Source of the DNA: Halomonas beimenensis
GTDB taxonomy: Bacteria > Pseudomonadota > Gammaproteobacteria > Pseudomonadales > Halomonadaceae
NCBI RefSeq assembly: GCF_002549795.1
Contig: NZ_CP021435.1
Coordinates: 1,302,001-1,366,000, forward strand
Direction of reading: 5' to 3'
Length of the DNA: 64,000 nt
Each line of letters opens with the position of its first letter. The first letter of the stretch is position 1. Of the stretch, positions 4,701-56,542 are shown one piece after another. A program made the translations under genes and the position numbers. The notes under the pieces are model-generated. The model had not been told where the DNA came from. It did not search any database and saw only the letters and a list, made by a program, of their open reading frames with translations.

Positions 4701-5153
4701 TTCCTTGAGCTGCGCCCGCTCCTCGCCCTCGATGCGCCGCGAGATGCCGCCGGCGCGAGGGTTGTTGGGCATCAGCACCAGGAAGCGGCCGGCCAGGCTG
4801 ATGAAGGTGGTCAGCGCCGCGCCCTTGTTGCCGCGCTCCTCCTTGTCGACCTGGACGATGACTTCCTGGCCTTCCTTGAGCACTTCCTTGATGCTGGGGC
4901 GGCCCGAGGGCTCCTTGATGAAGTACTCGCGGGAGATTTCCTTGAGGGGGAGGAAGCCGTGACGCTCGGCGCCGAAGTCGACGAAGGCGGCTTCGAGGGA
5001 GGGTTCGACGCGGGTGATCTTGCCGCGGTAGATGTTGGCTTTCTTCTGCTCCCGGGCACCGGATTCGATGTCCAGGTCATACAGGCGTTGTCCATCGACC
5101 AGTGCGACGCGCAGCTCTTCGGGCTGGGTCGCGTTGATGAGCATCCTTTTCAT
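1782..5153 (-). CDS. rne: Ribonuclease E with very long KPEA-repeat scaffold tail
   Basis: RNase E is the essential endonuclease that starts mRNA decay and processes rRNA and tRNA, and is the scaffold of the RNA degradosome. The start is ATG 5153 ([10 protein letters not shown], as in other RNase E proteins), giving 1123 residues. The S1 domain begins near residue 40. The catalytic DNase I-like domain has SIDINSA and VVIDFIDM with the two metal-binding aspartates, and the CPRC zinc-link is near residue 404, collinear with E. coli. The C-terminal half is disordered: an Arg-rich RNA-binding stretch is followed at about residues 788-1083 by near-uninterrupted K/P/E/A repeats, and the protein ends in a basic RRRRR segment. 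The upstream in-frame extension to 5363 is leader, not protein. Confidence 0.95.
1905..2790 (-). repeat. Tandem-repeat tract encoding KPEPKAEA-type units in rne
   Basis: Nearly 900 bp of the rne 3' half consist of 6-bp modules (codon pairs for [10 protein letters not shown]) arranged in larger units. Around 2430-2580 a 24-bp unit is repeated nearly perfectly several times in a row. Elsewhere the order of modules varies and longer blocks recur, for example the block with TQAEAK at about 2170-2215 and 2310-2355. The pattern indicates growth by slippage or unequal exchange. All changes are multiples of three, so the reading frame is kept. Confidence 0.9.
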
Positions 5154-8444: not shown

Positions 8445-8449
8445 CGGGG

Positions 8450-8545
8450 AGCTCGAAGCTGGAAGAGCGGCGCTTCGCGCCTGGAAGCTGGAAGACAGCC
8501 TGAATCCGCCAAAGGAGGAATCTTCCAGCTTCAAGCTTACGTCCG
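8450..8545. repeat. Intergenic heptad/REP-like element between sppA and maf
   Basis: The 140-bp convergent gap is occupied by a structured element. Two heptads AGCTCGA and AGCTGGA (8450-8463) lead into a core GAAGAGC, a perfect mini-hairpin GGCGC-TTC-GCGCC (8469-8481), then GGAAGCTGGAAGA. The last stretch pairs (8483-8495) with TCTTCCAGCTTC at 8521-8533, giving a 12-13-bp stem over 25 nt. Close relatives of the core lie at 23131-23174 and 56384-56428. It may also end transcription of the two convergent genes. Confidence 0.8.
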
Positions 8546-8584
8546 CGCAGCGGGCGATCTTCCAGCTCCCGGCGAAGCCGGGGT

Positions 8585-18620: not shown

Positions 18621-18623
18621 CGA

Positions 18624-18682
18624 GCTTCAAGCTTCAAGCTTCAAGCTTCAAGCTTCAAGCTTCAAGCTTCAAGCTTCAAGCT
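18624..18682. repeat. Heptad array, GCTTCAA x8, between pilZ and tatD
   Basis: Eight perfect tandem copies of the 7-mer GCTTCAA run from 18624 to 18679 and end in a partial GCT. The array begins 3 bp after the pilZ stop and fills most of the 93-bp gap to tatD. No left arm is present here, unlike at the other sites. A short AT-rich stretch (TACACT at 18682-18687) that could be a -10 box follows immediately. Confidence 0.95.
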
Positions 18683-23117: not shown

Positions 23118-23130
23118 GCCGGGCACCGGA

Positions 23131-23174
23131 AGCTGGAGGAGCGCCGCTTCGCGGCTGGAAGCTTGAAGCTGGAA
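23131..23174. repeat. REP-like core, second copy
   Basis: Right after the sulfurtransferase stop lies GGAGGAGC, the mini-hairpin GCCGC-TTC-GCGGC (23143-23155), then TGGAAGCTTGAAGCTGGAAGA. It matches the core at 8462-8496. Both arms of the mini-hairpin changed together (GGCGC/GCGCC there, GCCGC/GCGGC here), so pairing is kept. A terminator hairpin and a heptad array follow. Confidence 0.8.
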
Positions 23175-23178
23175 GAGA

Positions 23179-23212
23179 AAACGCCCCGAAGGCCGAGGCC
23201 TGCGGGGCGTTT
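23179..23212. terminator. Bidirectional terminator between the sulfurtransferase and etfD genes
   Basis: Perfect 10-bp arms AAACGCCCCG (23179-23188) and CGGGGCGTTT (23203-23212) flank a loop that is itself palindromic (AGGCC/GGCCT). T-rich bases follow the plus arm (TTTCTGTTT), and a T-rich run lies after the hairpin when read on the minus strand. It separates two convergent genes. Confidence 0.85.
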
Positions 23213-23225
23213 CTGTTTATGCTGG

Positions 23226-23335
23226 CTTCGAGCTTCGAGCTTCGAGCTTCGAGCTTCGAGCTTCGAGCTTCGAGCTTCGAGCTTCGAGCTTCCTTGCTGG
23301 CGCAGCCCGTAGCCCGTAGCCCGTAGCCCGTAGCC
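23226..23335. repeat. Two heptad arrays: CTTCGAG x9 and AGCCCGT x4
   Basis: Nine perfect copies of CTTCGAG occupy 23226-23288 and end in a partial CTTC. After 11 bp of other sequence, four perfect copies of AGCCCGT occupy 23304-23331, ending in AGCC. The second array uses a different 7-mer but the same period. The etfD stop codon lies directly after it, at 23341-23343. Confidence 0.95.
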
Positions 23336-33738: not shown

Positions 33739-35019
33739 ATGAGCGAGTCGGATCAGACCACAGCACCGGCCCAGACCGAGAACCGCAAGCCCAAGCGTCG
33801 CCGCCGCAAGCCGCGCCGTCGCCAGTCGAACTGGGACCTGCGCCAGTTCCAGGTCCCCGCCGTGGCGGGCAAGTGGCGCTTCCATGACTTCGATCTCCCG
33901 CTGCCGCTGATGCGCGCCATTCATGCCCAGGGCTTCGAGTACTGCACTCCGATCCAGGCCGAGGCGCTGCGCCATACCCTGCTGGGCGGCGACGTCGTCG
34001 GCAAGGCCCAGACCGGCACCGGCAAGACCGCCGCCTTCCTGATCTCGATCCTGGCCTACTTCCTCGAGGAGGAGGCGCCGGACGGCCAGAAGCCCGGCGC
34101 GCCCAGGGCACTCATCGTGGCTCCCACCCGCGAGCTGGCGCTGCAGATCGAGAAGGACGCCAAGGCACTGGCGCGCTTCACCCAGCTCAACGTCGCCAGC
34201 GTCGTGGGCGGGATGGACTACCAGAAGCAGCTCGAGGGACTGGGCAAGAAGCTCGACATCCTGGTGGCCACCCCGGGCCGGCTGCTGGATTTCCACCAGC
34301 GGCGGGACGTCGACCTCACCCAGGTCGAGGTGCTGGTGCTCGACGAGGCGGATCGCATGCTCTCCATGGGCTTCATTCCCGACGTCAAGCGCATCATTCG
34401 CCATACGCCGAAGAAGGAGGAGCGTCAGACCTTCCTGTTCTCGGCCACCTTCACCGAGGACATCCTCAACCTGGCCAGCCAGTGGACCCATGACCCGGCC
34501 CACGTCGAGATCGAGGTCACCGTCGACAATGCCGCGGACATCGACCAGCGGGTCTACCTGGTCAGCGACGAGGACAAGCAGCGCCTGCTGGTCAATCTCC
34601 TGCAGCAGGAGAGCTTCGACCGGGTGATGGTCTTCGGCAACCGCCGCGACCTGGTGCGCAAGCTCGACGAGCTGCTCAAGAAGGCCGGCATCAACGCCGC
34701 CATGCTCTCCGGCGACGTGCCCCAGAACCAGCGTATCCGCACCCTGGAGCGCTTCCGCGAGGGCGAGATCCAGGTGCTGGTGGCCACCGACGTGGCCGGC
34801 CGCGGCATCCATATCGAGGATGTCAGCCACGTGATCAACTATACCCTGCCCGAGGACCCGGAGGACTACGTCCACCGCATCGGCCGCACCGGGCGCGCCG
34901 GCGCCAAGGGCACCTCGATCAGCTTCGTGGGCGAGGAGGACGCCTTCTCCCTGCCGGAGATCGAGCGTTTCATCAACGACAAGCTGCCCTGCGAGCATCC
35001 GCCCGAAGGACTGTTGTAA
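33739..35019 (+). CDS. rhlB: DEAD-box RNA helicase, RhlB-like
   Basis: The 426-residue protein has all DEAD-box motifs: [13 protein letters not shown] (Q), AQTGTGKT (I), PTRELALQI (Ia), TPGRLLDF (Ib), VLDEADRML (II), SAT (III), [15 protein letters not shown] (V) and [10 protein letters not shown] (VI). A short basic N-terminal tail ([13 protein letters not shown]) precedes the core. In E. coli RhlB works with RNase E in the degradosome; that rne is also in this window is suggestive only. ATG 33739 is used; ATG 33718 in the same frame is equally possible, as neither has a clear ribosome site. Confidence 0.88.
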
Positions 35020-35132
35020 GCTCTTAGCTTTAAGCTCGAAGCTGGAAGAGAAAAACACCGGCTGTGGCGGAAGCCAGAGCCTCCTCCGAGTGGCACTGGT
35101 GTGACTTCCAGCTTCCAGCTTCTGGCTTCCAG
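35019..35132. repeat. Heptad element between rhlB and dinG
   Basis: The left arm has four degenerate heptads (AGCTCTT, AGCTTTA, AGCTCGA, AGCTGGA; 35019-35046). The right arm has four of CTTCCAG type (35105-35132, one variant CTTCTGG). The arms are inverted with respect to each other, and the loop contains a weaker ACACC/GGTGT pairing. The element fills the gap; the dinG ribosome site AGGA follows it at once. Confidence 0.85.
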
Positions 35133-35143
35133 CTAGGAATTTT

Positions 35144-55509: not shown

Positions 55510-55649
55510 GCGACCAAGCGGCGAGTAGAAAGTAAAAAGTGGCAAGTAGAAAGGGAAGGAGGCGCAAGTAGAAAGGTTCTCATCTGCTTGCCACTTGCCA
55601 CTTGCCACTTGCCACTTGCCACTTGCCGCTTGCCGCTTGCTCCTTGCTC
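55510..55649. repeat. Heptad element between era and recO, CTTGCCA type
   Basis: Nine heptads occupy 55587-55649: five CTTGCCA, two CTTGCCG and two CTTGCTC. The left part (55525-55575) contains AGTAGAAAG several times and GTGGCAAGTAGAAAG, which is partly the inverse of the array. The 7-mer differs from that of the other sites, but the period, copy number and left-arm/right-arm layout are the same. The array ends 35 bp before the recO start. Confidence 0.9.
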
Positions 55650-55684
55650 CCTGTGGCTTGACGCTGCCCGAAGGCCCATCGCTC

Positions 55685-56386
55685 ATGATCCCCCAACCGG
55701 CCTATCTGTTGCACAAGCGGCCCTACCGCGAGACCAGCGCCCTGGTCGAGCTGCTGACCCTGGACCACGGGCGGGTCCGGGCCGTGGCGCGGGGCGTGCA
55801 GCGGCCCCGCAGCCGGGCCCGGGCGGCCCTGCAGCCCTTCGCGCCGCTGCACCTTACCTGGAGCGGCGAGGGCGATCTCAAGCGGCTGTCGCTGATGGAG
55901 ACTCAGGGCGCGGCGGCCATGCTGGTCGGCGAAGGACTGCTGTGCGGCCTCTATGCCAACGAACTGTTGACCCGGTTGCTGCCCGTGGAGCTGCCGGTCC
56001 GGGAGGTCTTCGTCCACTACGGCGCGGCCCTCGAGGCCCTGCCGCGTCCCGAGCGACGGGCCGGTGCCCTGCGGCGCCTCGAGCAGGCGCTGCTCGAGGC
56101 GCTGGATGCCGAGCCGCGCTTCTGCGGCCCCGATGGCCAGGCCCTCGACCCGCAGACTCGCTATGTCTTCGACCCCGTCTCCCGCGCCTTCCACCCGGGA
56201 CAGGGCGGCATCGATGGTCGTACCCTGAAGCTGCTGGCGAGTGGCGACCGGGGCGAGCCGGGCCTGGCCGGGCCCGCCAAGGCCGTCAATCGGGCGGCCC
56301 TGGCGCCACTGCTGGGTAGCCGGCCGCTGCGCTCCCGGGAGTGGATGCGCCAGTTGGCGGCCCGGCGGCGGGCCCGCCAAGCTTGA
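55685..56386 (+). CDS. recO: DNA repair protein RecO
   Basis: RecO, with RecR, loads RecA on gaps coated with SSB. The 233-residue protein has an N-terminal OB-fold (AYLLHKRPYRETSALVELLTLDHGRVRAVARGVQR) and a helical C-terminal part typical of the family. ATG 55685 matches the family start; the frame runs open upstream through the heptad array, so the true start rests on homology. The gene is flanked by repeat elements on both sides. Confidence 0.9.
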   Translation: MIPQPAYLLHKRPYRETSALVELLTLDHGRVRAVARGVQRPRSRARAALQPFAPLHLTWSGEGDLKRLSLMETQGAAAMLVGEGLLCGLYANELLTRLLPVELPVREVFVHYGAALEALPRPERRAGALRRLEQALLEALDAEPRFCGPDGQALDPQTRYVFDPVSRAFHPGQGGIDGRTLKLLASGDRGEPGLAGPAKAVNRAALAPLLGSRPLRSREWMRQLAARRRARQA

Positions 56387-56517
56387 AGAGCAGCGCTACG
56401 CGCCTGGAAGCCTGAAGCTGGAAGACAGGCTTGCGGTACAGGTGGGTGGTAACATGCTGTTTTCCAGCTTCCAGCTTCCAGCTTCCAGCTTCCAGCTTCC
56501 AGCTTCCAGCTTCCAGC
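56384..56517. repeat. Heptad/REP-like element between recO and pdxJ
   Basis: The core (56384-56428) reads TGAAGAGCA, a mini-hairpin GCGC-TAC-GCGC (56393-56403), then CTGGAAGCCTGAAGCTGGAAG. GAAGCTGGAAGACAG (56414-56428) pairs at 14 of 15 positions with CTGTTTTCCAGCTTC (56457-56471). The right arm continues as eight perfect TTCCAGC heptads (56462-56517). It shares its core with the elements at 8450 and 23131. The pdxJ ribosome site follows 10 bp later. Confidence 0.92.
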
Positions 56518-56542
56518 TTACGGCTCATCGAAGGAGAGTGTC

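Follow-up and report, generated by a model that had tools for sequence, protein, structure and literature searches.

Three intergenic sites in the genome of Halomonas beimenensis share a short repeat built around a mini-hairpin whose arms differ in step from site to site, which raises the question of what kind of element the repeat belongs to and what changes both arms together. The window considered here is the whole 64,000-nucleotide stretch that was analysed, positions 1,302,001-1,366,000 of a genome of 4,053,030 bases in a single contig. A sequence-only reading of this DNA described the repeat as a REP-like core and linked it to RAYT transposases; the dispersed repeat and the concerted change of its arms have held, the RAYT link has not. 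At gene 3' ends the core forms one arm of a larger palindrome; neither this palindrome nor its orientation relative to the replication fork, on which our argument turns, figured in that reading.

Cores are present at all three sites previously placed at 8462-8496, 23131-23174 and 56384-56428, with the motifs and stem-loops given in Table 1. Site 3 has an A/C mismatch in the outermost position of the stem and therefore forms four pairs, matching the GCGC/GCGC arms first described. Within the window a loose core pattern was tried: allowing up to three mismatches it gave 20 matches against 13.9 expected, not above chance, and at 0-1 mismatch it gave four, the three cores and one at 5104. Across the whole genome the pattern GAAGAGC-N6-16-GGAAGCTG has nine matches and its reversed form none. 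A covariance model was built from 27 cores, 11 of them rows from this genome that match by construction, and a search of the genome with it returned 79 matches at E <= 0.01. We treat the 25 that are full-length with at least 39 bits as strong copies; the remaining 54, either weaker modules or pieces of heptad arrays and in many cases on the opposite strand, were excluded from the orientation counts. None of the 25 strong copies lies inside a gene, genes being called here and throughout by a purpose-written, simple codon-usage program, and no Rfam family matched the 64-kb window at its gathering score. Core-pattern matches occur in 120 of 275 family genomes, which is an upper figure because hairpin-less matches and reversed-control hits are common in that scan; among the matches listed, at least 80 core-bearing hosts are named Halomonas, Chromohalobacter, Litchfieldella, Modicisalibacter, Onishia or Salinicola, all of which we take to be Halomonadaceae. 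The core therefore extends beyond three places and its variation covaries in the further copies, the two points on which the sequence-only reading had made its proposal depend.

The covariation of the stem is real. In named genomes, a pattern that frees one stem pair and the loop centre while fixing the other two loop bases gave at least 121 matches in at least 113 loci, 119 of them distinct, and 115 of the 119 cores have a Watson-Crick free pair, against 59.4 expected if the two positions were independent, bearing out the claim that the arms change in step. Among the 119 distinct cores listed the free pair is G-C in 69, C-G in 45, T-A in one and otherwise composed in four, and the loop centre is T in 83, G in 16, A in 11 and C in nine. 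The 24 distinct rows of the core alignment have 94.2% of stem cells paired, falling to 53.3% at most when the partner columns are slid by 1-3, and their covariation score of 0.273 (0.094 when shuffled) was reached by none of 500 shuffles. Two weaker measures discriminate less: three pairs changed on both sides (reached by 26 of 500 shuffles) and four further pair types (247 of 500). The loop, left free in this alignment, is T-N-C in most, not all, of the 27 aligned cores. On the other strand T-N-C is G-N-A, the loop of the very stable d(GCGAAGC) mini-hairpin; the energy model used gives the same value for both strands. It had been proposed that the pairing is either selected or copied as a unit. 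The concerted change on which this rests is sound, and the selection reading is not forced by it, since a single template-switching event can alter both arms of a stem (PMC8794818).

Read in the direction of the fork, the larger palindrome begins at a stop codon with a first arm of AAG-phased heptads, often containing one or more mini-hairpins, and GGAAGA. There follow a centre of some tens of nucleotides, which sometimes forms a strong hairpin with a T run, often ATGCTG, and then an inverted second arm, which is frequently a homogeneous array such as (CTTCCAG)n. The second arm of site 1 is without a long array. RNA folding at the three window sites gave z values of -3.47, -5.18 and -2.44, and inspection of the folds revealed a terminator-like hairpin with a T-rich run at site 2, not evident at sites 1 and 3.

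Table 1. Palindromes, cores and heptad arrays in the window (positions within the 64,000 nucleotides)
Feature	Coordinates	Strand	Remarks
Site 1, first arm	8448..8498	+	Phased heptads and core 8462-8490 (GAAGAGC 8462-8468, stem-loop GGCGC-TTC-GCGCC 8469-8481), directly after the stop of a peptidase S49 gene
Site 1, centre	8499..8520	+	Between the arms
Site 1, second arm	8521..8584	-	TCTTCCAGCTTCAAGCTT and two mini-hairpin modules, reading outward from the convergent Maf gene
Site 2, first arm	23129..23177	+	Core 23136-23164 (GAGGAGC from 23136), mini-hairpin 23143-23155 (GCCGC-TTC-GCGGC), phased heptads to 23177
Site 2, centre	23182..23218	+	GC-rich hairpin, then T-rich run; putative, terminator-like
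Site 2, second arm	23225..23292	+	Perfect heptad array GCTTCGA, 9.7 copies
Further perfect heptad array	23304..23335	+	Different unit, AGCCCGT, 4.6 copies
Site 3, first arm	56380..56426	+	Core 56385-56413 (GAAGAGC from 56385), mini-hairpin 56392-56404 (AGCGC-TAC-GCGCC, 4 pairs); end of a recO-like gene
Site 3, centre	56427..56461	+	Ends in the ATGCTG that precedes many arrays
Site 3, second arm	56462..56519	+	Perfect heptad array TTCCAGC, 8.3 copies, before pdxJ
Core-less heptad array	18623..18682	.	AGCTTCA, 8.6 copies; unit without clear strand
Palindrome of same plan, no mini-hairpin	35017..35134	+	AAGCTNN first-arm heptads, CTTCCAG second-arm heptads
Palindrome of same plan, other heptads	55516..55650	+	AAGTAGA/AAGTGGC first arm, CTTGCCA array as second arm

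The seven-nucleotide pitch prevails among the sampled intergenic arrays whatever their unit. In 304 kb of this genome (the window and twelve spread-out 20-kb stretches; arrays of at least three copies and score of at least 50), nine of ten intergenic tandem arrays have period 7 and one has period 8, and outside the window the figure is four of five, whereas none of four coding arrays has period 7 (12, 14, 18 and 24). The same division was seen in 160 kb from relatives, with period 7 in 3/3 intergenic and 0/9 coding arrays, although six of the eight stretches surround site 1 and two of the three intergenic arrays lie in the site-1 spacer itself. The 667 kb of the genome examined for perfect heptad arrays of four or more copies contain 45, with 14 different units; this sample was chosen partly, and strand-blind, by AGCT-heptad patterns, and its arrays were unfiltered for intergenic position. 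On the first-arm side, AAG recurs at 7 nt 93 times, at 14 nt 59 times and at 21 nt 27 times, against five times or fewer at any other distance from 3 to 20 nt; CTT spacings there are 34, 36 and 29 at 7, 14 and 21 nt, partly because some stretches contain a neighbouring array. The T-N-C mini-hairpin is found on the first-arm side of 19 of 26 arrays and on the far side of three (the lagging array excluded). The complement of the array unit occurs within 170 nt upstream in 24 of the 45 cases and within 120 nt downstream in one, stretches of unequal length; as permuted pairings yielded a mean of 14.5 and a maximum of 25 upstream in 2000 permutations, copying of the first arm as it now stands accounts for only part of the arrays.

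Polarity was judged against replichores. The contig, like those of the relatives G100, G061, G047 and G109, begins with a gene recognised as dnaA, and on this chromosome GC skew is positive in six of six samples on the left and negative in six of six on the right, changing sign near 1.95-1.98 Mb. The replichore border was taken from GC skew only; a dif site, sought by its consensus in parts of 1.94-2.17 Mb, was not found within seven mismatches. We defined anchored arrays as CTG-N0-4-(CTTNNAG)3, which gave 29 hits, or 27 after two doubles were merged. Twenty-six of the 27 read CTT on the leading strand (left replichore 13/13 on +, right 13/14 on -), and the reversed pattern gave no hits. Strong cores, taken as the best 25 of the 79 model matches with one near the terminus set aside, are leading in 22 of 24; two-sided binomial probabilities are 4e-7 for the arrays and 4e-5 for the cores, and when the arrays are collapsed into 14 blocks more than 50 kb apart, 13 blocks are wholly leading (one-sided p 0.0009). 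This fork polarity is independent of the neighbouring genes. Leading orientation holds for 12/12 arrays and 14/15 cores between convergent genes, for 9/9 arrays (8/8 without a strand-ambiguous one) and 4/4 cores lying in tandem along genes, and for 5/6 arrays and 4/5 cores lying against them; none of the 27 arrays or 25 cores is found between divergent genes.

The larger set of perfect arrays of at least four copies, oriented by their pyrimidine-rich strand, comprises 40 leading and four lagging among 44, one of the 45 lying near the terminus and being set aside. One array at 2,996,836-2,996,868 (CTTCAAG/CTTGAAG; hit at 2,996,843) has a unit without clear strand, and counts as leading among the anchored and as lagging among the perfect arrays; without it the figures are 25/26 and 40/43, and without both strand-ambiguous perfect arrays (2,996,836 and 1,320,623) the latter becomes 39/42. 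Two lagging arrays, at 2,165,283 and 2,167,797 (G000 C1:2,165,283-2,167,845), are neighbours, with a normally oriented array 8 kb away, and a small, recent inversion is possible there. Arrays in relatives are leading in 10/10 (G100), 8/8 (G061), 1/1 (G047) and 1/1 (G109) cases, GC skew samples agreeing with the replichores in the first two and position alone assigning them in the others; the other five of the nine relatives searched have no arrays. All seven hairpin-bearing cores with known positions in G061, G100 and G047 are also leading, a count that leaves aside two overlapping hairpin-less matches in G100, which would be lagging, and three matches in G109.

Simpler modules are less strictly oriented. 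GCTNCGC with one heptad has 52 hits in the genome (reversed control 4), non-independent where they share a site, three of them near the terminus and four within called genes; 18 of 18 are leading in tandem regions, and between convergent genes 18 are leading and 12 lagging. Since these modules point both ways, polarity belongs to the core-plus-array palindromes and not to every mini-hairpin behind a stop codon. A second array class, CTTKCYN in four units, has eight leading and four lagging members by hit cluster (reversed control 1); the four lagging ones, short and mixed, look like first arms, which is a post hoc reading, and this class is weaker evidence.

Comparison with relatives indicates that the sites are old and their contents young. 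The stretch of peptidase S49 and Maf genes around site 1 was matched in 90 of 90 genus genomes, and both flanking genes are present in 28 of the 30 site-1 loci read. The spacers between them follow the same plan with other units (CTTGCTC, CTCGCAC and CCACGGG arrays, an AGAGGGA-like arm) or hold different mini-hairpins or another dispersed repeat. Empty sites, which the earlier reading had suggested looking for in close strains, do exist: in at least 19 of the 90 genomes the two site-1 hits are separated by no more than 13 nt. In the sister genomes G064 and G106 the spacers measure 137 and 158 nt, a difference of exactly 21 nt, or three CTTCCAG units. At other orthologous spacers the core is kept at 90-96% flank identity, or a different heptad family is present, or the core is reversed. 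Site conservation combined with differing contents indicates long-lived sites with fast internal turnover. Across 145 core sites compared with orthologous loci (426 pairs, overlapping and non-independent), the core is kept in 275 and missing by the strict pattern in 151, in some only through point changes; of these 151, 89 contain phased AAG or phased CTT at least twice and 62 do not. No convincing target duplication was seen in the 20 of these orthologous comparisons that were inspected.

Several individual loci deserve mention. The other dispersed repeat (...GCGCTGTGAACCCCTCCCTGGGCGCTACC...) occupies the orthologous site-1 spacer of several species (L140, L152, L153, L155, L157). At one orthologous spacer the core has opposite orientations in different species (L278 against L256 and L078), and at another a core together with a small ORF is absent from one relative (L250 compared with L348 and L270). 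We take the small ORF in L250 to resemble a four-helix-bundle (S23) protein.

The gene-independent fork polarity leaves two broad ideas, rewriting during DNA synthesis and fork-coupled insertion. From the anatomy, the 7-nt period, the position at the 3' ends of genes and this orientation we infer the former, and give an even chance to the proposition that the cores are the first arm of an intergenic quasi-palindrome family rewritten with fixed polarity by the passing replication fork. The leading-strand polymerase would copy the first arm and the centre, after which the nascent 3' end would fold back on the first arm, for which the gene's own terminator hairpin would be a natural seed. The folded-back end would then copy the heptads while looping out the stable mini-hairpins, slipping in steps of 7 nt, so that the arm made second would become a pure heptad array; both arms of a stem could change in one such event. 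Rewriting would explain the T-N-C mini-hairpins on the first-arm side, the homogeneous second arms and the paired stem changes together. In E. coli, template switching is stronger on the leading strand (PMC6357072; PMC8794818), and its strand-biased product has a counterpart here in the polarity of arrays and cores; those assays use small reporters, and carrying them over to Halomonas would be an extrapolation. The strand of synthesis is conjectural, for the same polarity would result if the event took place on the lagging strand, in the arm that is copied first. Against rewriting, the presence of one core at 25 sites calls for an additional process; the core might have spread by ectopic copying from one similarly phased arm to another, a guess that lies outside what the rewriting model explains. 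More ambitiously, and with a little less than even confidence, the fork itself might be regarded as the author of these elements, terminator-seeded quasi-palindromes growing and being re-copied in 7-nt steps, with any unit, on the arm that leading-strand synthesis produces second, so that their anatomy would record fork direction and the heptad pitch would reflect the replication machinery. If true, this would link the excess of heptamer repeats in bacteria with covariation in dispersed palindromes that have no transposase.

Fork-coupled insertion would require a non-autonomous element that a Y1/HUH or clamp-binding transposase inserts, as single-stranded DNA, in the template of the lagging strand; this enzyme would be missing here, extinct or not recognised, and the fork polarity would be an insertion polarity. 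The orientation of IS200/IS605 elements follows host replication, and clamp-tied orientation biases are known from several IS families (PMC5371812); a core that is dispersed, itself polarised in 22 of 24 copies, and replaced at orthologous spacers by nothing or by another family would suit such an element. We nevertheless consider it unlikely, because the transposase search, which covered the Y1_Tnp family (PF01797), found no match in this genome while five of 14 control genomes matched, no convincing target duplication appeared in the 20 comparisons, and homogeneous period-7 arrays on one arm are left unexplained. The same search also tells against the RAYT-mobilised REP/REPIN family of the sequence-only reading, which is largely refuted and to which we attach next to no credence. 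The repeats resemble REPs and REPINs in being short intergenic palindromes, often inverted pairs in many copies per genome (see also PMC3116915), and some relatives do have RAYT-like genes. Y1 matches, tallied by eye, occur in 110 of 275 family genomes and in nine of the 19 with at least four core-pattern matches; Y1 is thus present in the lineage and not tied to the core. Neither the core nor an AGCT-type heptad pair occurs at 20 chosen Y1/RAYT-like loci of relatives, scanned together with some 2 kb of flanking sequence on either side as far as the contig extended, which also counts against the single-stranded element; one other stem-loop with a GC-TNC-GC centre was seen there, in L122. Furthermore, canonical REPs have GT[AG]G at the hairpin foot (PMC6006769), whereas the foot is GAGC in all 27 aligned cores, nearly all of which were found with patterns fixing GAGC. 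The missing GT[AG]G foot counts against the single-stranded element too, and the heptad-phased arms are a further difference from REPs.

Two other readings dispense with both rewriting and insertion. The palindromes might be functional polar signals, kept in one orientation by selection, for example because they pause the fork, act in chromosome segregation or serve as intergenic terminators. Their place at gene 3' ends and never between divergent genes (0/27 arrays, 0/25 cores), their strong RNA folding at the three window sites and the stem covariation all suit this reading, which is however quite improbable, as families, hairpins and units are exchanged at orthologous sites, some of which are empty, and as template switching can yield covariation. 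Ordinary bidirectional terminators that follow gene orientation, the fork bias merely mirroring the genes, would account for the centres that resemble intrinsic terminators and for elements following stop codons. Convergent genes, however, supply no direction, yet the arrays (12/12) and cores (14/15) between them are leading, as are most of those that run against genes (5/6 and 4/5). We therefore rejected gene-following terminators as the source of the orientation, and the reading as a whole is highly improbable; termination could still be the function of the centre. Loss of SbcCD, considered as a reason why long palindromes survive, was rejected as well, SbcD being present in this genome and above cut-off in 83 of 90 genus genomes.

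Bacteria have an excess of heptamer repeats, for which a connection with polymerase contact and slippage has been suggested and left open (PMC4692102). That work treats one consensus unit per organism, GGGAATC in Xanthomonas and GGGGAYT in Nostoc; these share with the Halomonas arrays a period of 7 and a mostly intergenic position, and many Xanthomonas copies form inverted pairs, with no leading/lagging preference reported. Halomonas shows the same intergenic over-representation of the 7-nt period, but has 14 units in 667 kb, mini-hairpins in one arm and strong fork polarity (26/27 leading). The TAACTGA heptads of Beggiatoaceae and cyanobacteria also form intergenic arrays that change in 7-nt steps, and all eight sets between stop codons in a small Microcystis sample have the same orientation; unlike the Halomonas arrays, which lie at gene 3' ends inside palindromes, the Beggiatoaceae sets are mostly upstream of start codons (PMC4679880). 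Template switching at E. coli quasipalindromes likewise rewrites inverted repeats by nascent-strand fold-back, more strongly on the leading strand, but is a laboratory reporter reaction of a few bases (PMC6357072), whereas the Halomonas case is a genome-wide dispersed repeat. A literature search, made mostly without subscription papers, found no prior description of a fork-polarised heptad palindrome in Halomonadaceae. Because one genome and its relatives display the period, the asymmetry of the arms and the fork polarity together, the slippage idea becomes testable: the side of the array predicts fork direction, and a flipped element should flip its growing arm. The case also cautions against taking covariation in bacterial intergenic hairpins as a necessary sign of selection or of an active transposase.

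Two further observations concern repeats in this genome. Heptad arrays at G000 C1:2,592,063, 2,982,261 and 3,114,026 (L159, L164) adjoin one end of an insertion sequence; the copy in L159 encodes an rve-type transposase and is labelled IS3-like, and this insertion sequence may target heptad repeats. Within the window, a 24-nt tandem repeat of about 36 copies lies at 1942-2797, inside a called coding region on the - strand.
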